Positions 1-17,632 of a DNA stretch of 64,000 bases are shown here, one piece after another. The stretch covers positions 1,674,001 to 1,738,000 of the forward strand of contig NZ_CP041656.2 of assembly GCF_007290395.2 (NCBI RefSeq), written 5' to 3'. Every line of letters begins with the position of its first letter. Positions within the stretch are counted from its first letter, which is position 1. This DNA comes from Bradyrhizobium cosmicum (GTDB taxonomy: Bacteria > Pseudomonadota > Alphaproteobacteria > Rhizobiales > Xanthobacteraceae). The notes under the pieces are model-generated. The model was given only the letters and a program-made list of their open reading frames with translations, searched no databases and had not been told where the DNA came from. A program made the translations under genes and the position numbers.

Positions 1-2407
1 GGCCGTCCGGCCAATGCTGGACCAAGCCGTGCCAATCCGGGGCGTCCTGCGGCAGCGCTGCGTGCCGCGCGGCAAAGTCCACCGGGCGGCGGTTGTCCGG
101 GTCGACCAGCGACAGGTCCCAGTATTCGGTGCCCTGATAGAAGTCGGGAACACCAGGCAATGTCGCCTTGAGGGTGAGCTGGCTCAGCGAGTTCAATGCG
201 CCGAGCAGTGCGACGCGGCGGGCCAGCGTCTGCAGCGATTCAAGGAATTCACCTGACAATGCAGGATCGAGGATCTTAGCGATGAAGCTGTTGACGCCGT
301 TCTCATAGGCTTCATGCGGATTGAGCCAGCTCGTCTCTTCCTTGCCCTCGCGCGCGGCCTTGAGCGCATAAGCCTGGATGCGCTCGACGAAGCCGGCATC
401 GGCCGGCTCTTCGAGCGGCCAGGCCCCGAGCAGGGTCTGGTAGAGCATGTATTCGAACGTTGCCGATGGTGCGCGCAGCTTGCCGTCGAGCGCCAGGTGC
501 GGCGCGTTCAGTACCTTCCAGCGTGAGACTGCGCTGGTCCACTCGCCGGGGATCTCGCTGAGCGCCGCGATCCGCGCTCGGGCGTCCTCGCCGCGCTTGG
601 TGTCGTGGGTCGCGGTCGCCGTCATCCCTTGCGGCCATTCCCTGGCGCGGGCCTGCATGGCCTGATGGAAGGCGGGAATGGAGAGACCGGTGCTCGCGGG
701 ATCGCCGCCGACCTCGTTCAACGCGAGCAGCCGGTGGAACTGGTAGAATGCAGTGTCCTCCAGTGACTTCGCCATCATCGGCCCGGTGAACTGCTGCACT
801 TTCAGGGCGAAGCGGCGCACGCGCAGGGCACTGTGCGCGGGGCGGCCGGGCTTGAGCAGGTCCATGGTCAGGGCATCGCGCAGGAAGTCGAAAATGCCGT
901 CGTCGGCGGCGAACCATTCCGCGCGGGCCCGCTCGATGGTGTCGTCGATCAGCTTGCGATCGAGGGCGGTCGGGTCGCTGTGCGTCAGGTAGGTGCGGTA
1001 GACCGGGAAATGCAGCACATAGAGTTCGAGCGCCTGCCGCAGGCTGTCGGCTGAGAAATCGCGGGTCGAGTAGTGTCCGTTGGCGATGCGGGCGAGCAGG
1101 CGCGTCAGCACGGTGAATTCGCTGGTCAGCAATGTCTCCAGCACGCGGCGCTTGGCGTCCTTCACATAGGGCGCGAGCTGTGGCGGACGGTTGCTGATCT
1201 GCCGCCAGGTCTCGTCCAGCGCCTCCAGCCCCTTGGCGTCGACCAGGACCTGGGTGATGACGTTCATCCACTCGTAGCCGGTGGTGCCCTGAACGCCGGC
1301 GAAGTGCGGCAGGCGCTCGTGCTCGCACAGGATTTTTTCGATCACCGTGTAGAACGGCTTTGCGTTGCCCTGCGCATCGCGCACCAGACGGCGCAACCGC
1401 TGGCAATATTGCGCGGGATCGCGCAGGCCGTCGATGTGGTCGAGACGAATGCCCTGCAGCCTGCCGTCGGCGACGAGCTGCTTTACCAGCCGGTGTGTCG
1501 CGGCGAACGTGCTTGCGTCCTCGACGCGCAGGCCTGCGAGACCGTTGACGTCGAAGAAGCGGCGATAGTTGATGTCGCTGGAAGCGAGCCGCCAGTGCCC
1601 GAGCTTGTAGTGCTGGCGCTCCAGCAGATGGTGCAGCGTCAAGGTCTGTGCCGGTCGATCCTTGGCCGCGCGATAGGCGCCAAGGCCCTGCGCGATGAGG
1701 TCGGCGCTGCCTGCGATCTCCTTCAACTCGGTCTTGAAGCCGGGCGCCTCCTTGCGGTTAGGCCGGCGCAGCCCGGTATAGCGCGTGGCAAGTGCGATCA
1801 TCCGCTTGCCGGCTTCCGTCTCGGCGGCATCGGCCTCCTTCACGATCACCCGCAGCAATTCGCCATAGCGCTCCGGCGCGATCGGCAGGCGATGCTCGAA
1901 ATACCAGGCGGAAAAGCTGCCTTCGCCGGGATCGTAGCGCAGCTCGATGTCGCCGCGCTCCAGCGCCTCGCCATAGGAGGCGCCGAGGATCGGCAGCAGC
2001 ACGCCGCCGCGGGCGCGGTAGGGCAGCAGATCCCAGTCGATGTCGAAGGAGACCGCATGCGGCGAGGCCTGGCCCCATTCCAGCACGTCGAGCCACCAGG
2101 GATTATCGGCAAAGTGCACGCCGACATGGTTCGGCACGAAATCGATGACGAGGCCAAGATCGTGCTGCCTCAGCGCGTCGCTCAGCCGCGCGAAGCCAGC
2201 CTCGCCGCCGAGTTCGGGATTGAACTGGCTGTGATCGACGGTGTCGTAGCCATGCGTCGAGCCCTTGCGGGCCTTCATCACCGGCGAGGTGTAGAGATGC
2301 GTGATCCCGAGCGCCTTGAGATACGGCACCACCGCGGCCGCCTTGTTGAAGTCGAAATCCGCGGTGAGCTGAAGCCGGTAGGTCGCAAGAGGAATGGCGG
2401 GAGGCAT
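1..2407 (-). CDS. treY: Malto-oligosyltrehalose synthase TreY, 3' end cut by the window
   Basis: TreY isomerises the reducing-end alpha-1,4 bond of malto-oligosaccharides into an alpha,alpha-1,1 bond, making maltooligosyltrehalose for TreZ to cleave. The first 802 codons are present; the family is usually 850-950 residues, so only the C-terminal end is missing. GH13 motifs are visible: VIDFVPNHVG near residue 88, GIRLDHIDGL with the nucleophile Asp, a Glu in YTVIEKIL, and ATHDTKRGED. The start is the ATG at 2407, one base after the treZ stop, so the two are translationally coupled as the last genes seen of the glgE-treS-glgB-glgX-treZ-treY operon. The frame has no stop up to the window edge. 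Confidence 0.95.
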   Translation of the reverse strand, partial: MPPAIPLATYRLQLTADFDFNKAAAVVPYLKALGITHLYTSPVMKARKGSTHGYDTVDHSQFNPELGGEAGFARLSDALRQHDLGLVIDFVPNHVGVHFADNPWWLDVLEWGQASPHAVSFDIDWDLLPYRARGGVLLPILGASYGEALERGDIELRYDPGEGSFSAWYFEHRLPIAPERYGELLRVIVKEADAAETEAGKRMIALATRYTGLRRPNRKEAPGFKTELKEIAGSADLIAQGLGAYRAAKDRPAQTLTLHHLLERQHYKLGHWRLASSDINYRRFFDVNGLAGLRVEDASTFAATHRLVKQLVADGRLQGIRLDHIDGLRDPAQYCQRLRRLVRDAQGNAKPFYTVIEKILCEHERLPHFAGVQGTTGYEWMNVITQVLVDAKGLEALDETWRQISNRPPQLAPYVKDAKRRVLETLLTSEFTVLTRLLARIANGHYSTRDFSADSLRQALELYVLHFPVYRTYLTHSDPTALDRKLIDDTIERARAEWFAADDGIFDFLRDALTMDLLKPGRPAHSALRVRRFALKVQQFTGPMMAKSLEDTAFYQFHRLLALNEVGGDPASTGLSIPAFHQAMQARAREWPQGMTATATHDTKRGEDARARIAALSEIPGEWTSAVSRWKVLNAPHLALDGKLRAPSATFEYMLYQTLLGAWPLEEPADAGFVERIQAYALKAAREGKEETSWLNPHEAYENGVNSFIAKILDPALSGEFLESLQTLARRVALLGALNSLSQLTLKATLPGVPDFYQGTEYWDLSLVDPDNRRPVDFAARHAALPQDAPDWHGLVQHWPDG

Positions 2408-2408
2408 G

Positions 2409-4163
2409 CTAGCCTCCGAGACGCCAGAGCACCGACCACGGCGGAAGCCGGTCGCCGCTCGCGTCGCCCCAGATCGGTGTGCCTGCGTCGTTGCTCGAAT
2501 ACGTGATCTCGTTGTCCGACAGATTGGCGACGAGGCGCAGCGTCGCGCCGTCCGCCATACGCCAATGCGCGGTCAACAGGCCGCTATCCGCCGCTGCGGC
2601 GTCGCCGAAGGTGGCGCCTCTCAGCCGCGGTGCGATCTCCTTGCGGCGAAGTGCGAGAAGATCGCGCACCAGCGCGAGTCGCGCATCCTGCTCCGGGGTA
2701 CGGCCGGCCCAGTCGAGCACGGCTGATTGCAGCGTCGCGGGGTCGAGCGGGTCTGGGACCTCGTCGCCGTATTTCTCATAGGCCCAGTCGTATTCCTGCC
2801 TGCGCCCCTTGCGCACGGCATCGGCAAGGCCGCCCTGGAAATCGCAGAAGAACGGGAAGGGCGCCTTGGAGCCCCACTCCTCGCCCTGAAACAGCATCGG
2901 CACCATCGGCGCAAGCAGCGTCACCGCGAGCGCGGCGTCGATCTGCCGCGGCGAAGCCAGGCTCTCCAGCCGCTCGCCCAGCGGCCGATTGCCGATCTGG
3001 TCGTGGTTTTGCAGGAAGTTGACGAAGGTCGCCGGAGGCAGTTCGCCGCTCGCCTCACCGCGCGGCTTCTTGCCCCAGAATTCCGAGATCTCGCCCTGAT
3101 AGACGAAGCCTGAAGCCAGCGCGCGGGCGAGATCCATGCGCGGCGTCTGGTAGTCTGCGTAATAGCCGGCGAGCTCGCCGGTCAGCATCACATGCCAGGC
3201 GTGATGGTAGTCATCGTTCCACTGCGCTCGGTACTTCCCGTTCGGCGGATCCTGAGCGGCGTCGAGAAGGGCGGCGCGATTGTCGCCATTCTCCAGCACG
3301 AGATGGACGTGGCGTCCCGTTGCCTTGGCAAGTTCGCCGACGGCGACGCTGAGGTCGTGCAGCATCGATTGCTCGCCGGGAAGGGCCAGGATGTGATTGG
3401 CGGCATCCAGCCTGAGGCCGTCGAAGCGGTAGTCGGTCAGCCAGGACAGTGCGTTCTCGATCGCGAAGGCGCGGACCTGCGGCACGCGATAGTCGATCGC
3501 GCTGCCCCAGGGCGTGTGTGCATCGGTGAAGAAGGTCGGTGCATAGCGGCCGAGATAGTTTCCTTCGGGTCCGAAATGATTGTAGACGACGTCGAGAAAC
3601 ACCATCAGCCCGCGCAGGTGCGCTTCGTCGATCAACGTCTTGAGCTCTTCAGGGCGGCCATAGGCGCTGTCGGGCGCATACCACAGCACGCCGTCATAGC
3701 CCCAGCCGCGGCGGCCGGCGAAATCGGCCAGCGGCATCAATTCCAGCGCGGTAATGCCGGTTGCGACGAGATGATCAAGCTTGTCGATCATGGAGCGATA
3801 GGTGCCTTCCGGCGTGAAGGTGCCGACATGGGTTTCGATCAGTACCGTCTCTTCCCAGGGCCGGCCGCGCCAATCCCCAGCGCGCCACGAGAAAGCATCG
3901 TGATCGATCACCTCGCTCGGACCGGACACGTCGTCGGGCTGGAACGCCGATGCCGGATCGGGCACGTCTATATCGTCGTCGATCCTGAACTTGTAGGAGC
4001 TGTTGACCGGCAGGCCCGCGATGTCGGCGACATACCAGCCGTCCTGCCGGCGCTGCATCGCGTGCCGCCTGTCGAGCAGCAGATCGACGCGCCGTGCGTC
4101 CGGTGCCCACAGCCGGAACGACACGCCGTCCTTCGTCGGCCTCGCCCCGAAGGATGGCCTCAT
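2409..4163 (-). CDS. treZ: Malto-oligosyltrehalose trehalohydrolase TreZ
   Basis: TreZ hydrolyses the alpha-1,4 bond next to the terminal trehalose unit made by TreY and so releases free trehalose in the cytoplasm. The protein is 584 residues, normal for the family. It has an N-terminal beta-sandwich (about 1-95) followed by a GH13 barrel with DVVYNHFGPEG near 191, the nucleophile Asp253 in GLRLDAANH, Glu291 in LVLENGDNR and NHDQIGNR at 386-393. All catalytic residues are intact. The ATG overlaps the glgX stop by four bases (ATGA), which indicates translational coupling. Together with TreY it forms the glycogen-to-trehalose route. Confidence 0.96.
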   Translation of the reverse strand: MRPSFGARPTKDGVSFRLWAPDARRVDLLLDRRHAMQRRQDGWYVADIAGLPVNSSYKFRIDDDIDVPDPASAFQPDDVSGPSEVIDHDAFSWRAGDWRGRPWEETVLIETHVGTFTPEGTYRSMIDKLDHLVATGITALELMPLADFAGRRGWGYDGVLWYAPDSAYGRPEELKTLIDEAHLRGLMVFLDVVYNHFGPEGNYLGRYAPTFFTDAHTPWGSAIDYRVPQVRAFAIENALSWLTDYRFDGLRLDAANHILALPGEQSMLHDLSVAVGELAKATGRHVHLVLENGDNRAALLDAAQDPPNGKYRAQWNDDYHHAWHVMLTGELAGYYADYQTPRMDLARALASGFVYQGEISEFWGKKPRGEASGELPPATFVNFLQNHDQIGNRPLGERLESLASPRQIDAALAVTLLAPMVPMLFQGEEWGSKAPFPFFCDFQGGLADAVRKGRRQEYDWAYEKYGDEVPDPLDPATLQSAVLDWAGRTPEQDARLALVRDLLALRRKEIAPRLRGATFGDAAAADSGLLTAHWRMADGATLRLVANLSDNEITYSSNDAGTPIWGDASGDRLPPWSVLWRLGG

Positions 4164-6238
4164 AGCGCCCCCGCGAAAGCGAGCACGGAACGCGGCGGCG
4201 CTTTGCTGTCGCTTCCGGGCAGGAAATCAACGCTGTTCAGCTTGGCGTCGGTCGTGTTCAGGATCTGCTGCCAGCTCTTGTATTCGGTCAGTTTCGGCAA
4301 TTTGAATGCGATCTCTTCAGGGGCGGCGTTCAGTACGATAAATATCGCGGCGCTTCCCGGTTCCATCGGCCCCATCACGTATGAGAGGAACCGCCCCTCC
4401 GGGAATTTCCAATCGTTCTCCGTCATCTCGTCACCGGCGGGCGTCAGCCACAGCGCACCGTAGGAGATGCCATCCTTGGGGCGGCCGTCGAGCCAGCGAT
4501 GGCTGCGAAGCTGCGAGAAGCGGCGGCGGATGTCGGCAAGACCGGCAACGAAATCGACCATGTCGTCGCCTTCCTTGCCGAGATTGTCCCAGCCGACCCA
4601 GCCGACCTCGTTGTCCTGGCAATAGGCGTTGTTGTTACCGGATTGCGAATTGCCGACCTCGTCGCCGGCGAGGATCAGCGGAATGCCCTGCGCCAGCATC
4701 AGGCAGGCCAGCACGTTCTTGCGAAGCTGCCGGCGCAACCCGATGATCTGGGGATCGTCGGTCGGGCCTTCGACACCGCAATTGTTGCTGTGGTTGTCGC
4801 TGGAGCCGTCGCGATTGTCCTCGCCGTTGGCTTCGTTGTGCTTCTCGTTGTAGCTGAAGAGATCGGCGAGCGTGAAACCGTCGTGCACCGTGATGTGGTT
4901 GATGCTGGCGCGCGGCCGCCGTCCGTCATGGTTGAACAGATCGGACGATGCCGTCATGCGGCTGGAGATGTCGCCGATCAGGCTGCCTTCGCCGCTCCAG
5001 TAGCGCCGCATCGCGCTGCGATAGCGGTCGTTCCATTCCGACCATTGCGAAGGGAATGCGCCGACCTGGTAGCCGCCGAGGCCGAGATCCCAGGGCTCGG
5101 CAACGAGCTTGACGGTCGCCAGCACCGGATCCTGCCGGATCGCGGTCAGGAACGAGATGCCGCGATCATAGCCGTTCGGTCCGCGCGCGAGCGTCGTGGC
5201 GAGGTCGAAGCGGAAGCCGTCGACATGGCAGACCTCGACCCAGTAGCGCAGCGAATCCATCACCATCTGCAGCACGCGCGGATGAGTGAGGTTCACCGAC
5301 GATCCGCAGCCGGTGAAGTCGTCGTAATAGCGCGGGTTGTCGCGGTTGAGCCAGTAATAGGAGGCGTTGTCGATGCCGCGGTAGCACAGCGTCGGGCCGA
5401 GGTGATTGCCCTCGGCGGTGTGGTTGTAGACGACGTCGAGCATCACCTCGATGCCGGCATCGTGCAGGCGCGCGACCGTGGTGCGAAAGGAGTCGAGCGC
5501 GTTGTCCTGGGCGTAGCGCGCCTCGGGCGCAAAGAAGGACAGCGTGTTGTAGCCCCAATAATTGGCGAGCTTCTTCTCGACCAGAATGCGATCGTCGACG
5601 AAGGCGTGGATAGGCAGGAGCTCGATCGTGGTGACACCGAGCTTCTTCAGATGCTCGATCATCGCCGGTGACGACAGTCCGCCATAAGTGCCGCGCAAAT
5701 TCGGCGGTACGTCGTCGCGCTTCTGCGTCAGGCCCTTGACGTGGGCCTCGTAAATGATGGTGTCTTCCCAGGGGATATTGGGCCGGATCTCGCGGCGGCC
5801 CCAGTTGAAAGTCTCGTCGACGACGACGCCCTTCGGCATGCCGCGCGCGTTGTCGCGCCGGTCGAACGACAAATCCTCGCGCGGGCTTCCGGTGCGGTAG
5901 GCGAAATGCGCGTCGCTCCAGACCAGCCGGCCCGCGAGCCGCTTGGCATAGGGGTCGAGCAGCAGCTTGTTGGCGTTGAAGCGGTGGCCATGCTCGGGCT
6001 CGTAGGGGCCGTGCACGCGATAGCCGTAGAGCTGGCCCGGCGAAACGTCGTTGAGATAGCCGTGCCAGACGTCCTCGGTGCGTTCGGGCAGCTCGATGCG
6101 CTCAAGCTCGCGCCGGCCCTGGCCGTCGAACAGGCATAGCTCGACCTTCTGCGCATTCGCGGAGAACAGCGCGAAATTGGTGCCACGTCCGTCCCAGCTT
6201 GCACCGAGGCGTGCGGGCGATCCAGCAGTCAGGCGCAT
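4160..6238 (-). CDS. glgX: Glycogen debranching enzyme GlgX
   Basis: GlgX is an isoamylase-type GH13 enzyme that cleaves alpha-1,6 branch points of phosphorylase-trimmed glycogen, supplying linear chains to TreY/TreZ and MalQ. The 692-residue protein has an N-terminal CBM48 domain (about 1-140) and a catalytic barrel with DVVYNHTAEG at 268-277, nucleophile Asp345 in DGFRFDLATTL, acid/base Glu381 in VAEPWDLG and HDG at 452-454. The NEKHNEANGEDNRDG stretch is typical of debranching enzymes. It lies three bases after the glgB stop and overlaps treZ by four, so it is in the middle of the glucan operon. Confidence 0.96.
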   Translation of the reverse strand: MRLTAGSPARLGASWDGRGTNFALFSANAQKVELCLFDGQGRRELERIELPERTEDVWHGYLNDVSPGQLYGYRVHGPYEPEHGHRFNANKLLLDPYAKRLAGRLVWSDAHFAYRTGSPREDLSFDRRDNARGMPKGVVVDETFNWGRREIRPNIPWEDTIIYEAHVKGLTQKRDDVPPNLRGTYGGLSSPAMIEHLKKLGVTTIELLPIHAFVDDRILVEKKLANYWGYNTLSFFAPEARYAQDNALDSFRTTVARLHDAGIEVMLDVVYNHTAEGNHLGPTLCYRGIDNASYYWLNRDNPRYYDDFTGCGSSVNLTHPRVLQMVMDSLRYWVEVCHVDGFRFDLATTLARGPNGYDRGISFLTAIRQDPVLATVKLVAEPWDLGLGGYQVGAFPSQWSEWNDRYRSAMRRYWSGEGSLIGDISSRMTASSDLFNHDGRRPRASINHITVHDGFTLADLFSYNEKHNEANGEDNRDGSSDNHSNNCGVEGPTDDPQIIGLRRQLRKNVLACLMLAQGIPLILAGDEVGNSQSGNNNAYCQDNEVGWVGWDNLGKEGDDMVDFVAGLADIRRRFSQLRSHRWLDGRPKDGISYGALWLTPAGDEMTENDWKFPEGRFLSYVMGPMEPGSAAIFIVLNAAPEEIAFKLPKLTEYKSWQQILNTTDAKLNSVDFLPGSDSKAPPRSVLAFAGAL

Positions 6239-6241
6239 CGG

Positions 6242-8389
6242 TCAGCTTTCCGGAACGAGGAAGATCGCGGCGAGAGGCGGAATGGTGAGGCGGAGCTCGG
6301 GCGCCTTGCCGTCAACGGCATGAACTTCGCCGATGTTCCCGACATTGGTGCCGCCATAATGGGCGGAGTCCGAATTGAACACTTCTTTCCACTTACCCGC
6401 CAACGGAACGGGGACGCGGTAGTTGCGGTAGACGTTGGGCGAGAAGTTGACGATGACGAGGCAGCGTGCATGCGCGTCGATCCCCTTGCGCAGCCAGGCG
6501 AACACGTTGCGGTTGGCATCATCGGTGATCAGCCATTCGAAGCCGGCCTGGTCGCAATCCATCTGGTGCAGGGCCGGCACGGCGCGATAGAGCCGGTTGA
6601 GATCGCGGATCAGCGACTGAATGCCGGAGTGATTCTTGTATTCGAGAAGGTGCCAGTCGAGCGACTGGTCGTGATTCCATTCGCGGCCCTGCGCGATCTC
6701 GTTGCCCATGAACAGCAGCTTCTTGCCGGGATGGCCGAACATGAAGCTGTAATAGGCGCGCAGATTCGCAAAGCGCTGCCATTCGTCGCCGGGCATGCGG
6801 CCGAGGATCGATCGCTTGCCGTGCACGACCTCGTCATGCGACAGCGGCAGGATGAAATTTTCCGAGAAGGCGTAGTGCAGGCCGAACAGGATGTCGCCGT
6901 GATGATGCTTGCGGTGGATCGGATCCTTGCTGATGTAATTCAGCGTGTCGTGCATCCAGCCCATGTTCCACTTGTAGCCGAAGCCGAGGCCGCCGAATTC
7001 GACCGGGCGCGAGACCTGCGGCCACGAGGTGGATTCTTCCGCCGCGGTGGTGGCCTGCGGGAAGCGCGCGAACAGCTCGGTGTTGACGCGGCGCAGGAAC
7101 GCGATCGCCTCGATGTTTTCGCGGCCGCCATACTGGTTCGGGATCCAGCCACCGGGGGGGCGGCTGTAGTCGAGATAGAGCATGGATGCCACGGCGTCGA
7201 CGCGCAGGCCGTCAATGGCGTAGCGCTCCAGCCAGAACAGCGCATTCGACACCAGGAAGTTCGTCACTTCGGTGCGGCCGTAATTGTAGATCAGCGTGCC
7301 CCAGTCGAGATGGCGGCCCTGCAGCGGGTTGGCGTGCTCGTAGAGCGAGGTGCCGTCAAAGCAGCCGAGCCCGTGCGGATCATCCGGGAAATGGCCGGGC
7401 ACCCAGTCGAGCAGCACGCCGACGCCCTCGCGGTGACAGGCATCGACCAGCGCGGCGAAATCCTCCGGCGTGCCGAAGCGACTGGTCGGCGCATAGAGGC
7501 CGGTCGGCTGATAACCCCAGGAGCCGTCGAACGGATGCTCGCTGACCGGCAGGAATTCCAGATGGGTGAACCCCATGTCGCGGGCATAGGCCGGCAATTG
7601 TTCGGCGAGTTCGCGATAGGTCAGCCATTCGCCGCCGTTCTTGCGCCGCCATGAGCCGAGATGGACCTCGTAGATCGACATCGGCGCAGACAGCGCGTTG
7701 ATGCCATCGGGCGCCGGACGTGGACGCGGCAGATGGGCCTCGTCGAACACGATGGAGGCGGTCTTCGGGCGGACCTCGCTCGCGAACGCCATCGGATCGG
7801 ATTTCTGCGGAAGCTGATGGCCGTGCGGTCCGATGATGTCGAACTTGTAGTGGTCGCCGGCCTTGGCGTGCGGGATGAACAATTCCCAATAGCCGTTGCC
7901 GCGCACCCGCATCGGATGGCGCCGCGCGTCCCAGAAATTGAAATCGCCGACCACGGACACGCGCCGCGCATTCGGTGCCAGCACCACGAAGCCGATGCCC
8001 TCGACGCTGTCGAGCGTCATCGGATGCGCGCCGAGCTTGTCATAGAGGCGCTGATGAGTGCCTTCGCCGAGCAGATAGAGATCGAAGTCGGTCAGGATCG
8101 GCGGAAAGCGGTAGGCATCCTCGAGCTCGACGAATTTGTCGCCGAACCTGGCGCGGAGCTGGTAGCGCTTCGAACCGTTGGGCAGGGCGCCGATGAACAG
8201 GCCGGCGTCGTGGACGCGATCGAGTTGCGCAACCTCGCCATGCTCGCCGACCGCTTCGACGTTCGAGGCCTCCGGCAGGAAGGCACGCACCACGCTCGTG
8301 TCGCCCTCGGGATGCAACCCAAGATAATGGAAGGGATCGGAGTGGCGACCCTCGATGATCGCGTAGGCCTCGGCGGGTAGTTTAGGCAT
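6242..8389 (-). CDS. glgB: 1,4-alpha-glucan branching enzyme GlgB
   Basis: GlgB transfers segments of alpha-1,4 chains to form alpha-1,6 branches in glycogen. The protein is about 715 residues, with two N-terminal beta-sandwich modules (about 10-230) and a GH13 catalytic barrel. The barrel carries WVPGHFPDD, nucleophile Asp in [13 protein letters not shown], Glu in [10 protein letters not shown] and [11 protein letters not shown], all intact. I chose the ATG at 8389, preceded by a GAGAGCGAAG ribosome-binding region; a GTG at 8407 would add six residues. Either start overlaps the end of treS-mak (8 bases for the ATG). GlgB is needed both for classical glycogen synthesis and for the GlgE route. 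Confidence 0.95.
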
Positions 8390-11300
8390 GGGCTTCGCTC
8401 TCGGCACGGGACAGGATGCGAAGCAGGCCGGTCAGCGGCGCATGGAGCCCCTCCGGCCGGTGGGACAACTCGTACTCTACTTCGTCGAAGGCTCGATCAA
8501 GCAGGAAAAACCTTAACAGGCCATCCGCGGATTGGCGGTCTTGCGGCCACAGCCGCCGGTCGGTCATAGCCTCGCGATAGGCCGACAGGAAGGTCGCGGT
8601 GGCGCGTTCTCGCCATTCGCCGAGCGCTGCCGCGAGCCGGCCCTGCTCGTCGCCGCCGCCCGAGAGCGCACGGCTGAGCGCAGCGTTAACCGAAAGATCA
8701 ATCGAGCGGATCAGGCCAGCGACGTCGCGCGCGGCAGGCAGCTTGCGCCGCTTGTCGGCCAAAGGCAGACGCGGATCGCCGTCGAAGTCGATGATGAAGA
8801 TATCGTCCTTCACGATCAGAGTTTGCCCGAGGCGGAAGTCGCCATGATGACGAATGTTCAACCCGCCGATGTCCGATGGCAAGAGCGCATTCAGCTGGTC
8901 CGGCAGCGTCGCGCGCATTGCGGCGAGCCGGTCGATCAACGGCCGCTCGCCCTCGTGGCCGGCGACGCGGCTGTCGGCGAGTCGCTCGAAAACCCGCTCG
9001 GCGCGGGCCTTGAGGTCCGCGGTCCAGCGCTTGACTTGATTGGGGCCGGTCGGCTCCGGTGCGAGATCGTCGGGCTTTGCGGCGGCCAGAGCGACGTGCA
9101 GCTCGGCGAGCCGCCGGCCGATCTGCGCCATGAAGTGCAGATAGGGCGCCTGCTCCTGGGTCTCGCGCGGCATCTCGCCCGGCGGCAGCACCCGCTGCTC
9201 GTCGATATAGCGGTCGAGATAGCCGGCGGTGACGGCCCAGCCGTCGCCCTGGTTCTCGACATAGGCATGCAGCACGCCGAGCGCGCTGCGGCTGTCGTCG
9301 TCGACCAGCTCGACACTGCCGAGCAGCGCAGGCGTGTTGGCAAAGCGGGCGACCTCGGTGAGGTAACGGCCGATCTCGATCTCGGGACTGATGCCGCTGT
9401 CGAGCTTGCGATAGAGCTTGGCAACGTACTGGTTGTCGACCAGCGCCGTGCTGTTCGATTGCTCGATCGCGCGGATGCGCTCGGGCTCCTTGATGGTGTA
9501 ATCGGCGAACCGGCTGGTGGCCTTGAACTCCAGCCGCAGATTGTTCTCTTCCACCACCAGGTTCTGCGACAGATTGCGCAGGAACAGGCCGATGAAGATC
9601 TGGTCGGTCGCGACGTCGAGCAGCGTGCCCTCGCGCGCGCCCTGGCGCACGGCGGCGAGCGCCTTCGGGTTGAAGCGTTCGCGGTCGAAGCGCACCCATT
9701 CGATCTGCATCGGCAGTACGTAGCGCGTCGTGACGTCATGCTGCGCCGTCTCGAAGAACGCGATCCAGGGCCGGTTGTCGCCGATGTCGCAGAACGGCAC
9801 CGCCGAGAGCAGCGTCGGCTTGATATGCTTGGGATTGTGCTCGGGATACCAGCGCGTCCGCGACAAGAATCCCGGCAACACCTCGTGCTCGAACACGCCG
9901 CGCTCGCGCGCCAGCGACACCCAGGTCGAATTCACCGGCACCACCAGGGTCTCGAACTCCGGTACCGCGCGCGGCGTCACCGGTTCGGACTTGTCGCGCT
10001 CCTGGAGCTGGAACCAGTAGAATCCGTAGGGGCCGAGCGTGATCATGTAGGGCAATTCGCCGATCGGCGGGAAGCGCGTGCGGCCGAGCATCTCCTGCGG
10101 GATGCGGTCCTTCCACGGCGACAGGTCAAGCTCGGTCGCCTGCGCCGCGCGCGAGAGGTTGGCGACGCAGAGGATCACCTCGTCGCGATATTGCCGGACA
10201 TAGGCCAGCACGGAGCGGTTGGCGGGGCGGATGAAGGTCATGGTGCCGCGGCCGAAGGCGAGCGTGGACTTGCGCACCGAGATCAGCCGCTTGGTGGCGC
10301 TCAGCAGCGAGGACAGGCTGCGCGACTGTGCTTCCACGTTGACCGATTCATAGCCGTAGACGGGATCCATGATCAGCGGCGCATAGAGGCGGGCCGGGTC
10401 GCAGCGGGAGAAGCCGCCGTTGCGGTCCGGGCTCCATTGCATCGGCGTGCGCACGCCGTTGCGGTCGCCGAGATAGATGTTGTCGCCCATCCCGATCTCG
10501 TCGCCGTAATAGATGATCGGCGTGCCGGGGAAGGACAGCAGCAGCGAGTTCATCAGCTCGATCTTGCGCCGGTCATTGTCCATCAGCGGCGCAAGGCGCC
10601 GGCGGATGCCGACATTGATGCGGGCGCGCGGATCGTTGGCATAGGTGGTCCAGAGATAGTCGCGCTCGACGTCGGTCACCATCTCCAGCGTCAGCTCGTC
10701 ATGGTTGCGCAGGAACAGCGCCCATTGGCAGCTCGCCGGAATGTCCGGCGTCTGGCGCAGGATGTCCGTGATCGGGAAACGGTCCTCCTGCGCGATCGCC
10801 ATGTAGATGCGCGGCATCAGCGGGAAGTGATAGGCCATGTGGCACTCGTCGCCACGGCCGAAATATTCCTGCACGTCCTCCGGCCATTGGTTGGCCTCGG
10901 CGAGCAACAGCTTGCCCTTCGAGTAGGAATCCAGTTCCTGGCGCAGCCGCTTGATGATCGCGTGCGTCTCCGGCAGGTTCTCGTTCGAGGTGCCTTCGCG
11001 CTCACAGAGATAGGGAATGGCATCCAGCCGGAAGCCGTCGACGCCGGCGTCCAGCCAGCGCTTCATCACCTGGATCAGCGCGCTGACGACGCGCGGATTG
11101 TCGAAATTGAGATCCGGCTGATGCGAGAAGAAGCGGTGCCAATAGAACGCGCCGGCCTCGTGATCCCAGGTCCAGTTCGACTTTTCCGTGTCGGTGAAGA
11201 TGATCCGCGTGCCCTGGTATTTCTGGTCGGTGTCGCTCCAGACATACCAGTTGCGGGCGCTCGAGCCTGCCGGGCTGCGGCGCGCGCGCTTGAACCAGTT

Positions 11301-11675
11301 GTGCTGGTCCGAGGTGTGGTTGACGACGAGCTCGGTGATGACGCGCAGGCCGCGCTTCTGCGCTTCCTGGATGAAGCGCTTGAAGTCCTTCATGGTCCCG
11401 AAATCGGGATTGACCGAGCCATAGTCGCCGATGTCGTAGCCGTCGTCGCGGCCGGGCGAGGGGTAGAACGGCAGCAGCCACAGCGCGGTGACGCCGAGCT
11501 CCTGCAGATAGGGCAGCTTCTCGGTCAGGCCGGCGAAATCGCCGATGCCGTCATTGTTGCTGTCGGCAAAAGCCTTGACGTGGAGCTGGTAGATGATGGC
11601 GTCCTTGTACCACAGCTCATCCACGATTTCGGCAGCCTCAGCCTTCTTGGTGTCGACGGAAGACAATACATTCAT
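8382..11675 (-). CDS. treS: Trehalose synthase / maltokinase fusion (TreS-Mak)
   Basis: This two-domain enzyme interconverts maltose and trehalose (TreS) and phosphorylates maltose to maltose-1-phosphate with ATP (Mak). The protein has 1097 residues. The N-terminal GH13 domain (about 20-545) keeps the catalytic set: Asp in [17 protein letters not shown], Glu in [12 protein letters not shown] and Asp in [12 protein letters not shown]. The C-terminal kinase domain (about 570-1097) has the aminoglycoside-phosphotransferase-like HGDFRLGQ and IIDFDGDP motifs. It lies 10 bases after the glgE stop. Both halves look active, so maltose-1-phosphate should be made, yet its usual consumer upstream, GlgE, lacks catalytic residues. 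Confidence 0.96.
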
Positions 11676-11685
11676 GGCGTGATCC

Positions 11686-13632
11686 TTACGCCAGGCAGCG
11701 GAACAGGAGCGCCGGATCGCGGTCGGGATCGATACGCAATTTGATCCCGCCCCATTCGATGCGGGACTGTTCGCCTGTCAGGAGATTTTCGAGTGCGCTG
11801 ACGGGGCGGCGCTCGCCGCCGGCGTCGATGGTGAGGTCGCCGAGCGGCAGCCAGAATTCGCGCCCATGGCGCGAGAGCGCGATGACCGCGACGACGGTAT
11901 TGGCCGGATCGACCGCCTCCTTGGCGAACGCGATCGTTTCGCCGTCTTCGACAGCAAGGAAGCGCAGGTTCGCAGTCTGCTGAAGCGCGGCGTTGTCGTT
12001 GCGGATGCGGTTCATCTCCGTGATGTAGGCCTTGATATTGCCCGGCTTGTCCCAGTCGCGCTGCCTGATCTGGTACTTCTCGGAGTCCTGATATTCTTCG
12101 CTGCCGGGTAACGCCTCGTGCTCCAGCAGCTCGAAGCCACTGTAGATGCCGTAATTGCCCGAAAGCGTCGCCGCCAGCGCGACACGCGACTTGAACGTCC
12201 AGGCTTCGCCGCTCTGGAGATGATAGGGCAGCAGGTCAGGCGTGTTGACGAACAGGTTCGGGCGATAGAAATCCCGCTCGGGATAGCGCGTCAGCTCGCC
12301 GAGATGTTGCTCCAGCTCCCACTTCGCGGTGCGCCAGGGGAAATAGCTAAACGACTGCGCAAAGCCGAGCTTGGCGAGGCCCTTCATCAGCTTGGGACGT
12401 GCGAACGTCTTGGAGAACAGGATGACCTCGGGATGCCGGCGGCGGATGTCGGTGATCAGCCAGTCCCAGAACGGAAGCGGCGCGGTGTCGTGATTGACGA
12501 TGGCGAAGATGGTCACACCATGGTCGATCCAGAACAGCATGGCGTCGCGAAACGCATTCCACAGCCCGGCTCGATCGACGGATGCAAAATCGGGAATGAC
12601 GATATCCGAATAGGGGCCCTCCGCCGTCCGCACCGAGCGGTCCGGCCGCCACTTGAACCATTCCGGATGCTGCGTCAGCCAGGGGTGATTCGGCGAGCAC
12701 TGCACGGCGAAATCGAGTGCGAGCTCGAGGCCGTATTCGAGACAGGTCGCCACCAGCGCGCGGAAATCCTCGATGGTACCGAGCTCCGGATGCAGCGCAT
12801 CGTGCCCGCCTTCAGCCGAGCCGATCGCATAGGGCGACCCCGGATCGCCTTCGCTGGCCACCGGCGCATTGTTGCGGCCCTTGCGACGAGTCGTGCCGAT
12901 CGGGTGGATCGGCGTGAAGTAGAGCACGTCAAAGCCCATCGCGGCGATCTCGGGCACGCGCGCGATGCAGTCGCGCAGCGTGCCGTGCTGGCCGGGAATG
13001 CGGCTCTGGCTGCGCGGCATCATCTGATACCAGGCGCCAAAGCGGGCCCTGTCGCGGTCGACGATCAGCGGAAAGTTTTGCGAGCGGGTCAGGTCGGGGC
13101 GCGACTGACTCTCGGCCATGGCTGCGCCGAGCTCGGTCGCGAGCAGCGGCGCGACCTCACCAGTTTGAAGAAAATCCTCGCATTGCCTGACGATGACGGC
13201 CGCGGCGTCCTGACGCGCGCCATGCGCCTTGGTCAAGAGGCCGGCGCCCTCGATCGCATCGAGGCTGACATCCGCACCGGTCTGCTGCTTGCGCGCGACG
13301 CTGTGCGACCAGGTGGCGAATTCATCGGTCCAGGCTTCGATGGCGTAGATATATCGGCCGGGCTCAACGGGTGTGAACGCGCCGGACCAGCGGTCATTGC
13401 CGTGAGGGATCATCGGCTCGCTCCGCCATTCACGCTCCTGCTCCGGGCGCCAGATCAGCGCCGCGACGATCACGGCGTCGCCGTCTCGGTAGATGTCGGC
13501 CCAGACCTCGACCGGTTCGGCAGCGATCCGCTTTACGGCAAAGCGGCCGCCGTCGATCGACGGATAGATGTCTTCGATGAGGAAAGCGCTGCCCGCTGCG
13601 GCGCTCTCGACAGTTTGAATTGTCTTGTTCAC
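11686..13632 (-). CDS. glgE: GlgE-family maltosyltransferase homologue, catalytic residues replaced
   Basis: GlgE normally transfers maltose from maltose-1-phosphate to glycogen ends. Overall similarity is plain: an N-terminal beta-sandwich (about 18-115), then GFDVLYFTPIHPIG at 233, GSAEGGHDALHPELGT at 271, QCSPNHPWL at 311 and NTPD later in the barrel. However, where characterised GlgE has FRVDNPHTKP with the nucleophile Asp, this protein reads FAIVNHDTAP (Val379). Where they have LAEAFTRPK with the acid/base Glu, it reads FSKTFARPK (Lys408). The AENPPKKYQD loop, which helps hold the phosphate, is shortened to AEGPYSD near 337. The gene is otherwise intact with no frameshift. The start is probably the GTG at 13632 (648 residues); the frame stays open up to 13788. 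It is the first gene of the operon. Confidence 0.88.
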   Translation of the reverse strand: MNKTIQTVESAAAGSAFLIEDIYPSIDGGRFAVKRIAAEPVEVWADIYRDGDAVIVAALIWRPEQEREWRSEPMIPHGNDRWSGAFTPVEPGRYIYAIEAWTDEFATWSHSVARKQQTGADVSLDAIEGAGLLTKAHGARQDAAAVIVRQCEDFLQTGEVAPLLATELGAAMAESQSRPDLTRSQNFPLIVDRDRARFGAWYQMMPRSQSRIPGQHGTLRDCIARVPEIAAMGFDVLYFTPIHPIGTTRRKGRNNAPVASEGDPGSPYAIGSAEGGHDALHPELGTIEDFRALVATCLEYGLELALDFAVQCSPNHPWLTQHPEWFKWRPDRSVRTAEGPYSDIVIPDFASVDRAGLWNAFRDAMLFWIDHGVTIFAIVNHDTAPLPFWDWLITDIRRRHPEVILFSKTFARPKLMKGLAKLGFAQSFSYFPWRTAKWELEQHLGELTRYPERDFYRPNLFVNTPDLLPYHLQSGEAWTFKSRVALAATLSGNYGIYSGFELLEHEALPGSEEYQDSEKYQIRQRDWDKPGNIKAYITEMNRIRNDNAALQQTANLRFLAVEDGETIAFAKEAVDPANTVVAVIALSRHGREFWLPLGDLTIDAGGERRPVSALENLLTGEQSRIEWGGIKLRIDPDRDPALLFRCLA

Positions 13633-13758: not shown

Positions 13759-13835
13759 GACCCAAACTAACCTCTTCCGCGACCTCACAAAATCCTTCCC
13801 CCCGGTCAGATAATGGCCTGCAAGCTGCGTGCCGA

Positions 13836-15797
13836 ATGGATCTTTTAGCTCAAGCCCAGATCAAGGGCGTTCAGTCCGAATTCGTCGATGCCCTCGGAAA
13901 GCTGCGGGTCACCGATCCCGTGGCCCTCAAATCCATCCTCGATGCCTTGCCGGAGAAGCGGGTTTATCGCTTCGTCCAGGGGCCGGTGGTGGTGCGTGCC
14001 CTCAGGCATTCGCGCACCGAGCTCGCGGCCATTGGCGCGCCGCCGCTCAAATGGACGATCACCGGCAACGGCAATCTGATCGCGCAGGGCGAGACACGCG
14101 AGCCCGTGATCGCCTGGCCGGCCGACCTGCCGCTCGGCTATCACCGTCTGACGCTGACCGATGCCGAAGGTGCCACGGAAGACGTGCCTATGATCGTGGC
14201 GCCCGAGCGTGCCTTCGGGGGCGATTTCGACCGCGGCTGGCTGCTCGCCGTTCAGCTTTACAGCATCCGCTCGGACCGCAACTGGGGCATCGGCGATTTC
14301 ACCGATCTGGCCGGTCTGGTCCGGCTGGCCAAGCAACTCGGCGCCGACGGCGTCGGACTCAATCCGCTGCATGTCCTGTTCGACAACCATCCGGCCGATT
14401 GCAGCCCCTATTCGCCGAACAGCCGGCTGTTTCTCAATCCGCTCTATATCGACGTCGAGGCCATTCCTGAATTCTCGGCAGACCTCGTGCCGGATGCCGC
14501 GGCGACCGCCGCGCGGCTGCGCGAGGGGGACCGCGTCCCCTATGCCGACATGGCGGCGCTGAAATGGCGGGCCTTGCGTGCCGCCTTTGACGCTTTCGTG
14601 ACAAAGGCGAGCGGTGTTCGCCGCAACGATTTCGACGCTTTTCGCGCTGATCGCGCGCCGCTGTTGTCCCGCTTCGCCTGCTTCGAGGTGCTGCGCCATC
14701 GTTTCGTGTCGCCGTGGTGGGAATGGCCGGCGGAATGGCAACAGCCGGACGACACCAAATGCGCTGAGTTGCGCGATGGTCCGGACAAGGAGGAAGTCGA
14801 GTTCGTCGAATTCGTGCAGTGGACGGCCGACAGCCAATTGCACGCCGCCAAGGCGCTTGCCAGCCAGCTCGGCATGCGGGTCGGGCTATATCTCGACGTT
14901 GCCGTCGGCGTGCAGTCCAACGGCTTCGATGCCTGGAATGAGCAGGTCGCGATCTCGCGGCATCTTGCGGTCGGCGCGCCGCCCGACGTGCTCAACACCG
15001 CCGGTCAGGACTGGGGTCTCGCCGGCTTCAATGCCGGCGGCCTGGAGGCGCAGTCCTTCGTGCCGTTCGCCGACATGCTGGCGGCCTCGATGCGCCATGC
15101 CGGCGCCATCCGGATCGATCACGTCTTGGGGCTGAAGCGGCTTTATCTGGTGCCGCGCGGCTTCAAGCCCGACAACGGCGCCTATGTGCAGATGCCGTTC
15201 GAGGCGCTGCTCGGTGCCATCGCCCGCGAAAGCGTGGCGCACAAATGTATCGTGATCGGCGAGGATCTCGGCACCGTCCCGGAAGGTTTCCGCGAGACCA
15301 TGCAGGATTTCGGCATCTGGTCCTACCTGGTCATGATGTTCGAGCGCGACGAAGCCGGACATTTCCGCAACTCCGACTTCTACCGGCCCAACGCGCTGGT
15401 GACGCTGAACACGCACGACCTCTGCACCTATGCGGGCTGGCGTTCCTTCAGCGACCTCAAGGTTAAGCTCTCGCTCGGACTCGATCCCGGCGAGAGCGAG
15501 CAGGCGCGGTGGGATGCTCTTGGCATGCTCGACGAGATCCTGCGCCAGAACGGCATCACCGCCAACGACCTCTATTCGGTGCTCGCCTTCCTGTCGCGCA
15601 CGCCGTCGCGGCTGTTGGCGGTATCGCTGGAGGATCTGCTCGGCGTGCTCGACCAGCCCAATATTCCCGGCACGATCGACGAGCATCCGAACTGGCGCCA
15701 GCGCCTGCCTGTCGCGCTCGACAAGATCGCCGCGAAGGTCGATCTCGCGGCTTTGAAGGCGGCGACGCGGGAACGTTCCCTCATCGGCGGAAGTTGA
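13836..15797 (+). CDS. malQ: 4-alpha-glucanotransferase (amylomaltase) MalQ
   Basis: MalQ disproportionates malto-oligosaccharides by transferring glucan segments and releases glucose, recycling short chains left by debranching. The 653-residue protein is a GH77 enzyme with YSIRSDRNWGIGDFTDL near 143, nucleophile Asp in RIDHVLGLKR, acid/base Glu in VIGEDLGTVPEGFRE and Asp in TLNTHDLCTYAGW. It has an extended N-terminal region (about 1-130), as in other proteobacterial MalQ. It is divergent from the glgE operon and followed 29 bases later by the GH15 gene, probably in one transcript. Confidence 0.95.
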   Translation: MDLLAQAQIKGVQSEFVDALGKLRVTDPVALKSILDALPEKRVYRFVQGPVVVRALRHSRTELAAIGAPPLKWTITGNGNLIAQGETREPVIAWPADLPLGYHRLTLTDAEGATEDVPMIVAPERAFGGDFDRGWLLAVQLYSIRSDRNWGIGDFTDLAGLVRLAKQLGADGVGLNPLHVLFDNHPADCSPYSPNSRLFLNPLYIDVEAIPEFSADLVPDAAATAARLREGDRVPYADMAALKWRALRAAFDAFVTKASGVRRNDFDAFRADRAPLLSRFACFEVLRHRFVSPWWEWPAEWQQPDDTKCAELRDGPDKEEVEFVEFVQWTADSQLHAAKALASQLGMRVGLYLDVAVGVQSNGFDAWNEQVAISRHLAVGAPPDVLNTAGQDWGLAGFNAGGLEAQSFVPFADMLAASMRHAGAIRIDHVLGLKRLYLVPRGFKPDNGAYVQMPFEALLGAIARESVAHKCIVIGEDLGTVPEGFRETMQDFGIWSYLVMMFERDEAGHFRNSDFYRPNALVTLNTHDLCTYAGWRSFSDLKVKLSLGLDPGESEQARWDALGMLDEILRQNGITANDLYSVLAFLSRTPSRLLAVSLEDLLGVLDQPNIPGTIDEHPNWRQRLPVALDKIAAKVDLAALKAATRERSLIGGS

Positions 15798-15826: not shown

Positions 15827-17632
15827 TTGTCTCAGAAGATCGAAGACTATGCACTGATCGGCGATTGCGAGACCGCGGCGCTGGTCGGGCGCAACGGCTC
15901 GATCGACTGGCTGTGCTGGCCCGCCTTCGATTCCGACGCCTGCTTTGCCGCGATCCTCGGCACGCACAAGAACGGCCGCTGGCTGATCGCGCCGGGCGAG
16001 GACATCACAGCGATCTCACGCCGCTACCTCGGCAACAGCCTGATCCTCGAGACGCGCTTTGAAACGAACAGCGGCACCGTCGCGCTGATCGACTTCATGC
16101 CGCCGCGCGGCAAGGCCTCCGACATCGTCCGGCTGGTGCGCGGCGTCAGCGGCACGGTCAAGATGCGGATGGAGCTTGTCATCCGCTTCGGCTTCGGCGT
16201 GGGCATTCCCTGGGTGCGGCGGATCGACCATTCCCTGCTGGCGGTCGCCGGCCAGGACATGACGGTGCTGCGCACGCCGGTGAAGACCCGCGGCGAGGAT
16301 CTGACCACGGTCGCTGACTTCGAGGTGAAGGCGGGTGAGACCGTGCCGTTCGTGCTAACCTACGGCCCCTCGCATCTCGATCCGCCCGAAGCGATCGATC
16401 CCGAGATCGCGCTCCAGGAGACCGAGAAATTCTGGCAGGAATGGTGCAGCCGCTGCACGCGGGACGGTGAATATCACGATCTCATCCTGCGCTCGCTGAT
16501 CACGCTGAAAGCGCTGACCTTTGCCCCGACCGGCGGCATCGTCGCCGCGCCGACAACGTCCCTGCCGGAAAAGCTCGGCGGGGCCAGGAACTGGGATTAC
16601 CGCTTCTGCTGGCTGCGCGATGCCACCTTCACGCTGCTGGCGTTGATGAACTCGGGCTATACCGAGGAAGCCCTGGCCTGGCACAATTGGCTGCTGCGCG
16701 CGGCGGCCGGCGCGCCGGCGAACATGCAGATCATGTACGGCATCTGGGGCCAGCGGCGCCTGCTGGAATGGGAGGCCGGCTGGCTCGAAGGCTATGAGGG
16801 CGCCCAGCCGGTGCGCGTCGGCAATGCCGCGCATGCGCAGCTCCAGCTCGACGTCTATGGCGAGCTGATCGACGCATTCCACCAGTCGCGCATGGCCAAG
16901 CTCAAGCTCGACGACGAGGTGACCTGGGCGCTGGAATGCGCCGTGCTCGATCATCTCGCCGAAGTCTGGGACCAGCCCGACCACGGCATCTGGGAGCGGC
17001 GCGGCCAGCCGCGGCACTATGTCTTCTCCAAGGTCATGACCTGGGTCGCCTTCGATCGCGGCATCAAGAGCGCCGAAACCTTTGGCTTCAGGGCGCCGCT
17101 GCTGCACTGGCGCGCTTTGCGCGAGGCCATTCACCGCGACGTCTGCAACAAGGGATTTGACGCGGAGGAGAATGCCTTCGTCGAGTCCTACGGCTCGAAG
17201 CTGCTCGATGCCAGCGTGCTACTGCTGCCAGCGGTCGGCTTCCTGCCGGCGCAAGACCCACGCATCCGCGGCACCATCGCTGCCGTCGAAAGACACCTGA
17301 TGCGCGACGGTTTTGTCTTGCGCCACGATCCACGCGAGGTCTCCGACGAGCAGCAGCCGATCGAGGGCGCGTTCCTCGCCTGCAGCCTGTGGCTTGCCGA
17401 TGCCCACGTGCTGGCCGGCAGTCTCGACAAGGCGCAAGTATTGCTCGATCGCGTCGTCGGCATCGCGAACGATGTAGGGCTCCTCGCAGAGGAATATGAT
17501 TCAGGCGCGCGCCGTCAGACCGGCAATTTCCCGCAGGCCCTGACCCACATCGCGCTGATCAACACCGCACACAATCTGTCGGCGGCAAGGCAGGAGTGCG
17601 ACAAGCCGGCGGTGCAGCGGTCGAAGCAGTGA
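15827..17632 (+). CDS. Glycoside hydrolase family 15 protein (glucoamylase or trehalase type)
   Basis: GH15 enzymes release glucose from the non-reducing ends of alpha-glucans or, in the mycobacterial-type subgroup, hydrolyse trehalose. The 601-residue protein begins with the family's N-terminal super-sandwich (about 1-215) and continues as an alpha/alpha barrel with NWDYRFCWLRDATFT, the acid Glu in HGIWERRG and the base Glu in LAEEYD followed by GNFPQALTHIA. There is no signal peptide, so it acts in the cytoplasm. The start is a TTG at 15827 with no strong ribosome-binding site; I see no better in-frame start. The glucan/trehalose context cannot separate the two substrate types. Its 3' end lies one base from the convergent HAD gene. 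Confidence 0.88.
   Translation: MSQKIEDYALIGDCETAALVGRNGSIDWLCWPAFDSDACFAAILGTHKNGRWLIAPGEDITAISRRYLGNSLILETRFETNSGTVALIDFMPPRGKASDIVRLVRGVSGTVKMRMELVIRFGFGVGIPWVRRIDHSLLAVAGQDMTVLRTPVKTRGEDLTTVADFEVKAGETVPFVLTYGPSHLDPPEAIDPEIALQETEKFWQEWCSRCTRDGEYHDLILRSLITLKALTFAPTGGIVAAPTTSLPEKLGGARNWDYRFCWLRDATFTLLALMNSGYTEEALAWHNWLLRAAAGAPANMQIMYGIWGQRRLLEWEAGWLEGYEGAQPVRVGNAAHAQLQLDVYGELIDAFHQSRMAKLKLDDEVTWALECAVLDHLAEVWDQPDHGIWERRGQPRHYVFSKVMTWVAFDRGIKSAETFGFRAPLLHWRALREAIHRDVCNKGFDAEENAFVESYGSKLLDASVLLLPAVGFLPAQDPRIRGTIAAVERHLMRDGFVLRHDPREVSDEQQPIEGAFLACSLWLADAHVLAGSLDKAQVLLDRVVGIANDVGLLAEEYDSGARRQTGNFPQALTHIALINTAHNLSAARQECDKPAVQRSKQ

Follow-up and report, generated by a model that had tools for sequence, protein, structure and literature searches.

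A GlgE homologue with altered catalytic and phosphate-binding residues, paired with a changed maltokinase domain, across a clade of Bradyrhizobium

A 64,000-nucleotide stretch of the Bradyrhizobium cosmicum genome (contig NZ_CP041656.2, positions 1,674,001 to 1,738,000; hereafter the window) encodes a homologue of GlgE, the alpha-1,4-glucan:maltose-1-phosphate maltosyltransferase of family GH13_3. Judged by its active-site residues, a probably non-working homologue of this kind is widespread in Bradyrhizobium and is found beyond this one strain, and the maltokinase (Mak) domain encoded beside it is altered as well. The reading that we moderately favour is that the maltose-1-phosphate branch has been retired at both of its enzymes, about three times within one genus, and that the GlgE of the window would be kept as a protein binding maltosyl units or glucan. 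As far as titles and the opening parts of abstracts tell, the papers found on GlgE in Bradyrhizobium, and on pseudoenzymes in this genus or among GH13 glycoside hydrolases, hold no description of such a case.

The active site of the GlgE homologue

The glgE reading frame runs uninterrupted from a GTG start at position 13632 to a stop at 11686, with an alternative in-frame start further upstream at 13788. The resulting length of 648 amino acids is also the most frequent one in the clade described below (121 of 134 unique sequences, extracted from the matched start), and likewise among the relatives listed. The Pfam domain GlgE_dom_N_S (PF11896) is recognized with an E-value of 2.7e-52 (178 bits, cut-off 25), and the Pfam amylase domain falls slightly under its cut-off (21.3 against 22 bits). 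The top matches among solved structures are chains of Streptomyces coelicolor GlgE1 (phmmer, E-value about 1e-142). Residue equivalences were taken from the phmmer alignment of the window protein to GlgE1, with S. coelicolor numbering for Asp394, Glu423 and Arg392. Asp394 is the nucleophile and Glu423 the acid/base of S. coelicolor GlgE (PMC5076824, PMC4526890), and activity is reported to be lost when Glu423 is mutated (PMC5076824). The corresponding features of the window are as follows.

11686..13632, minus strand: GlgE homologue without the acid/base, Arg392 or the full phosphate loop; 648 amino acids, GTG start
12496..12498, minus strand: Val379, codon GTC, at the position of the nucleophile Asp394; from the alignment and a reading of the codon
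12502..12504, minus strand: Ala377, codon GCC, at the position of Arg392; from the alignment, coordinates derived from the residue number
12409..12411, minus strand: Lys408, codon AAG, at the position of the acid/base Glu423; from the alignment and a reading of the codon
12604..12624, minus strand: shortened phosphate loop AEGPYSD, residues 337-343; coordinates derived from the residue numbers

In the alignment, FRVDNPHTKP of S. coelicolor faces FAIVNHDTAP in the window, the segment with the acid/base Glu faces FSKTFARPK, and the loop AENPPKKYQD faces AEGPYSD. Unlike S. coelicolor GlgE1 and Mycobacterium tuberculosis GlgE, the window protein thus has Lys for Glu423, Ala for Arg392, Gly for Asn352 and Val for Asp394, with Lys355 deleted; Tyr357 is retained, as is the motif NTPD (Asp480, here Asp466). 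The likenesses to these GH13_3 enzymes extend over the full length and include the N/S domain, the -2 subsite, Asp480, Asn395, Gln324 and an operon shared with TreS-Mak and GlgB. The initial annotation had described the clean frame, the replacement of Asp and Glu by Val379 and Lys408, the cut phosphate loop and the intact NTPD; all of this is borne out, the two substitutions to the base, and the loss of Arg392 is a further one that it did not contain. Two checks that it had proposed also went in its favour. The alignment of homologues reveals no displaced Glu that would restore the acid/base, position 408 being Lys in all 134 unique clade sequences, and a search of the B. cosmicum genome (7.27 Mb, one contig) found no second GlgE, intact or otherwise.

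A clade-wide condition

A GlgE search over 265 Bradyrhizobium genomes gave a match in 223, 16 of these being weak (E-value above about 1e-7). From the best 150 places, 130 with at least 75 percent identity and residues 1-648 spanned were taken as the clade set, and the site was read in all of them, from the loci of the search, from GTDB contigs whose coordinates matched and from stretches of sequence that were fetched. None of the 130 full-length genes has an internal stop. The position of Glu423 is occupied by Lys in every one, and Arg392 is likewise lost throughout (128 Ala, one Thr, one Ser). A sequencing error could be invoked for the Val379 codon alone; Lys408 and the loss of the arginine are shared by the whole clade.

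The loss of Asp, which the initial annotation had put in its headline together with that of Glu, is not the defining event. Asp394 is retained in 127 of the 130 genomes; the genome of the window has Val at this position, and two others have Ala. What the clade as a whole has lost is Arg392, Glu423 and phosphate contacts. In a tree built from the DNA of 73 clade sequences, three events are required to explain the changes at position 379, and a fourth change, to Gly, is present in a protein from the database search (P0104). This distribution indicates that Asp394 is the last residue lost, not the first, and that the Val of the window is a late local change.

The clade state was also found in all seven loci and all three proteins named B. 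japonicum or B. diazoefficiens, which were drawn from the lists of nearest relatives of the window protein and are a biased sample of those species. A duplication, with a dead copy beside a live one, was considered and set aside: no clade genome occurs twice among the matches listed for a canonical query (down to 1063.6 bits), the only genome to do so being G052, from outside the clade.

The losses are unevenly spread over the site. In GlgE the phosphate is contacted by N352, K355, Y357 and N395, the -1 sugar by D394, N395, Q324, D480, E423 and R392, and the -2 sugar by K264, N268, Y535, D359, residue 279 and K534 (PMC4526890). Across the 134 unique clade sequences, E423, R392, N352 and K355 are kept in none (K355 is deleted in 131 and Gly in three), and D394 is kept in 131. 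At the -2 subsite, K264, D359, K534 and Y535 are present in all 134 and N268 in 124, residue 279 being Ser in 127 and Cys in seven; N395 and D480 (134 each) and Q324 and Y357 (133 each) are retained as well. On this pattern the clade protein looks like a site that would still bind maltosyl units but no longer carry out the reaction; it does not look like a ruin.

Origins of the change within the genus

Other members of the genus have a canonical GlgE, with FRVDNPHTKP, the Glu and AENPPKKYED (loci L109, L111-L141 and L187-L194). One of them, B. archetypum (L111), offers a direct comparison: its protein is 69.5 percent identical to that of the window and lies in the same locus and gene order, but it reads FRVDNPHTKP, LAEAFTRPK and AENPPKKYED and adjoins an intact maltokinase domain. 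Outside Bradyrhizobium all 25 rows are canonical, representing 21 genomes from 12 genera of the family that were picked, not at random, from the matches listed for their spread among genera.

A FastTree phylogeny was inferred with the active-site columns masked from 123 of the 221 unique rows, among them 36 of the 134 clade rows. The clade forms one group (support 100) within canonical Bradyrhizobium, adjoining the canonical L109 (support 99). A second clade (L198-L221, including the names B. pachyrhizi, B. jicamae, B. tropiciagri and B. erythrophlei) stands separately (support 100). It retains the Arg, Asp and Glu, but its phosphate contacts are replaced, Asn352 by His (21 of 22), Lys355 by Gln (22 of 22) and Tyr357 by Trp (22 of 22), perhaps reflecting a change of donor; two loci nested in it, L205 and L212, have lost Glu423 too. 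Three further genomes lack Asp394 (Lys in L195 and L196, Thr in L197, where Glu423 is lost besides) and group together (support 94) within another canonical group (support 95). These placements point to about three separate origins of the GlgE change in the genus, with later steps added. The order of steps can be partly read within the first clade, too: an early branch (L105, L107, L186) has a full-length loop, AEGPSG(Q/K)Y, in which Asn352 and Lys355 are already replaced. Because the losses of Arg and Glu are common to the whole clade, the shortening of the loop probably followed them.

With a query from the second clade, the 120 proteins among the matches listed comprised 98 canonical ones, 16 with the triad and an altered loop, three with Glu changed to Gly and three with Glu changed to Lys. 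Three database proteins (P0145, P0148 and P0201) have Lys for Glu423 and otherwise near-canonical motifs, which might be the same loss at an early stage elsewhere.

The maltokinase domain and TreS

The gene following glgE encodes a fusion of TreS with Mak.

8382..11675, minus strand: TreS-Mak fusion, TreS motifs intact and maltokinase domain altered; from profile and motif comparison

The Mak domain of the window belongs to the family by its profile (TIGR02457, 635 bits, cut-off 375). Like mycobacterial Mak/Pep2, to which this C-terminal domain corresponds, it keeps the Asp of the catalytic loop, Lys149 and W222. In the M. tuberculosis enzyme (MtMak) the sugar is bound by W222, D322, H324, E430, Y433 and W441 (PMC6520443). 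Unlike that enzyme, the clade has Arg for H324, Gly or Ala for W441 (Arg and Gly in the window) and DFDGxx for DFEGEP, in each case in 82 of 82 sequences.

The state of Mak follows that of GlgE. Beside a canonical GlgE, HGD(F/L)HLGQ, DFEGEP and RxxW are present in all 41 unique TreS-Mak sequences (all 21 canonical ones from Bradyrhizobium and all 20 from other genera). Beside a modified GlgE, at least one substrate or ATP/Mg motif is changed in all 98 (82 from the clade, 12 from the loop-altered second clade and four others). The second clade reads DFDGGP in 11 of 12, has Asn for H324 in one (L199) and also has changed P-loop residues; in the DFE motif, Asp has become Gly in L195 and L196, and Glu has become Ala in L197. 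Some single changes may be tolerated, since GlcNK, a related kinase, is functional with a DFD loop (PMC6520443).

TreS, in turn, is untouched, its three catalytic motifs being identical in all 119 aligned Bradyrhizobium sequences, and among the residues invariant in canonical proteins the clade has lost one of 388 in TreS against 14 of 144 in Mak. The initial annotation had regarded TreS-Mak as active; this stands for the TreS motifs, but in Mak the residues equivalent to MtMak H324 and W441 are gone. It had also noted that maltose-1-phosphate would be left with no consumer. This puzzle probably dissolves, for with the sugar-binding His and Trp of Mak lost, maltose-1-phosphate would probably have no producer either. 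In M. tuberculosis the loss of GlgE alone is lethal through the build-up of maltose-1-phosphate (PMC4526890, PMC4663749), so that a loss of the kinase together with or before that of GlgE is to be expected.

That GlgE and Mak still act on maltose-1-phosphate despite their unusual residues seems to us very improbable. The family membership, the operon, the catalytic Asp of Mak and the precedent of GlcNK can be cited for it, but the acid/base, Arg392 and two of the four phosphate contacts are lost together, in the window strain along with the nucleophile, and Glu423 mutants of GlgE lose activity (PMC5076824).

A different cassette occurs in eight loci (L187-L194), which combine glgX with a GlgE and a kinase motif that both read canonical, with no TreS adjoining; the kinase was profiled in L187, where it is a stand-alone maltokinase with an IS256 transposase nearby. 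Two loci of this TreS-less cassette are present in G052.

Selection and newly fixed residues

The ratio of nonsynonymous to synonymous substitution rates (omega) was estimated by the Nei-Gojobori method as the median over at most 250 pairs with a synonymous divergence (dS) of 0.1-1.2. For GlgE it is 0.153 in the clade, 0.119 in canonical Bradyrhizobium and 0.167 in the loop-altered clade; for the Mak domain it is 0.216 in the clade and 0.176 in the canonical form, for TreS 0.044 and 0.081, and for clade GlgB 0.072. Purifying selection on the clade GlgE is slightly weaker than on the working form and far from neutral.

Canonical GlgE has 237 invariant positions. In the clade, 192 of them stay conserved in at least 95 percent of sequences, and 11 have become fixed for a different residue. 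Among these 11, nine (R377A, P381H, H382D, K384A, F405L, L406F, E408K, Y428F and T432P) lie within active-site motif windows, which were set by hand and hold 48 of the 237 positions (hypergeometric P about 1e-5). His381, Asp382 and Lys408 are newly fixed in all 134 unique clade sequences.

This concentration lends some weight to the idea that the site has been rebuilt for a different ligand or chemistry, with an NHD triplet, Lys408, Asp466, Lys519-Tyr520 and an intact -2 subsite, alongside a reshaping of the kinase domain; this would be one of roughly three exits from maltose-1-phosphate metabolism that left the operon in place. We entertain this tentatively, as a minority view. Its stricter form, in which the protein with its fixed set Asn380-His381-Asp382, Lys408, Asp466 and Lys519-Tyr520 would still be an enzyme, other than a maltosyltransferase, strikes us as rather unlikely. 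The retention of Asp394 in most clade genomes would suit it, but three clade lineages have lost this residue and kept the other fixed residues of the site, so that a retaining double displacement cannot be a requirement in them; the choice of motif windows was manual, broken copies occur in two clade genomes, and we know of no GH13 enzyme with a Lys as acid/base.

Slow decay, with GlgE and Mak drifting in a useless branch and held only by operon structure and translational coupling, we consider unlikely. It would account for GlgE and Mak having a higher omega than TreS and GlgB, for the invariant residues lost in Mak and for the absence or breakage of glgE in some genomes (see below). The five altered genomes outside the clade (L195-L197, L205 and L212) have lost Lys534 of the -2 subsite too, as true decay predicts. 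The clade presents a different picture, with 130 full-length matches free of stops, an omega still at 0.15, and both the -2 subsite and the new active-site residues fixed. The proposal of the initial annotation that this is a pseudoenzyme under selection, more likely than decay, is supported by these figures and by the 192 positions kept, and it is qualified by the two broken clade copies.

Operon and genome context

The gene lies at the head of a six-gene trehalose/glycogen operon of the order glgE, treS-mak, glgB, glgX, treZ and treY, with malQ divergent from glgE at a distance of 203 bases. TreS-mak follows glgE after 10 bases and overlaps glgB by 26; glgX begins three bases further on and overlaps treZ by four, and a single base separates treZ from treY.

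6242..8407, minus strand: GlgB branching enzyme, catalytic motifs present
4160..6238, minus strand: GlgX debranching enzyme, catalytic motifs present
2409..4163, minus strand: TreZ, maltooligosyltrehalose trehalohydrolase; above the NCBIfam cut-off
2..2407, minus strand: TreY, maltooligosyltrehalose synthase, extending beyond the window; above the NCBIfam cut-off
13836..15797, plus strand: MalQ 4-alpha-glucanotransferase, catalytic motifs present

By its motifs GlgB appears active, as the initial annotation had it. The neighbouring genes are alike in 28 compared treS-bearing loci (10 from the clade, two canonical, 12 loop-altered and four others), some of them incomplete at contig or fetch ends, and different in the eight TreS-less loci L187-L194. 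The genome of the window has one GlgE and one maltokinase, no second maltokinase having been found in it. Its genes for the classical route include GlgC above the cut-off and GlgA with an E-value of 1e-157 (GlgA is above the cut-off in 259 of 265 Bradyrhizobium genomes), so that glucan synthesis would be possible by that route.

The promoter pattern of the general stress sigma factor, GGAAC-N15-19-CGTT, has two matches in the window against 1.89 expected by chance, none of them upstream of glgE. A tRNA-Ala (GGC) called by ARAGORN at 2922-3007 on the minus strand lies within the treZ frame and is probably false. Adjoining malQ, a gene at 15827-17632 on the plus strand matches archaeal-type trehalase (TreH1) under the cut-off. 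A second TreS-like gene, under its family cut-off, lies outside the window (G000:C1:7223898-7225508) and may correspond to bll0902, a treS paralog mentioned in PMC8092242.

Functional interpretation

The reading set out at the beginning combines the clade-wide loss of Glu423, Arg392 and the phosphate contacts Asn352 and Lys355, with Asp394 gone in a few lineages including that of the window, and the loss of maltose-binding residues from the maltokinase domain of the same genomes. Such bacteria would neither make maltose-1-phosphate nor transfer it to glucan. TreS would solely interconvert trehalose and maltose, MalQ would return maltose to glucan, and glucan itself would come from GlgC and GlgA. 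With less certainty, GlgE may have been retained for its -2 subsite together with Asn395, Gln324 and Asp480, holding a maltosyl unit or a glucan end, and may serve the pathway as a binding or scaffold subunit that has no catalytic role. A GH13 fold kept without catalysis has a parallel in the SLC3 heavy chains, non-enzymatic proteins that retain the amylase fold; these differ from the window GlgE in their lineage, their membrane partner and the lack of a GlgE N/S domain. In B. diazoefficiens, treS is reported to belong to the regulon of the general stress sigma factor, and a treS mutant, described there from other work, shows raised trehalose and lowered maltose (PMC8092242). This phenotype fits a pathway in which maltose is not drained to maltose-1-phosphate.

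Several observations weigh against this interpretation. A pure binding protein has no obvious need for Asp394, which 127 of the 130 genomes retain, and the newly fixed Lys408, His381 and Asp382 suggest an active role of a new kind. The bacteria can, moreover, do without the gene: 58 of the 265 Bradyrhizobium genomes have no GlgE-level match (the 16 weak matches counted in), and among six low-scoring genomes inspected, two more proved to belong to the clade, bringing it to 132 genomes, and to carry broken copies. In G240 (L288, L294) glgE is broken into two frames at about residue 186, with the clade motifs present; in G121 (L293, L298) residues 1-116 and 607-648 remain and the middle is lost. 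The clade Mak, for its part, retains the catalytic Asp, Lys149, the Gln and the Mg-binding Asp and is perhaps still a kinase, possibly of another sugar. Finally, the association of GlgE and Mak states is perfect (41 of 41 and 98 of 98) but derives from about three origins and is suggestive only.

For B. japonicum a complete glgE operon has been stated, and on that ground a trehalose-linked desiccation phenotype of this species has been proposed to be one of alpha-glucan (PMC8084333). In the sequences named B. japonicum or B. diazoefficiens, however, both the enzyme making maltose-1-phosphate and the enzyme using it have lost key residues, and gene presence may mislead. Judged by its residues, the B. 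japonicum GlgE is unlikely to work, and a pathway that is counted as complete in these bacteria probably does not operate there. The genus offers, in effect, a natural experiment, in which the same two-enzyme branch would have been modified about three times and TreS left untouched.
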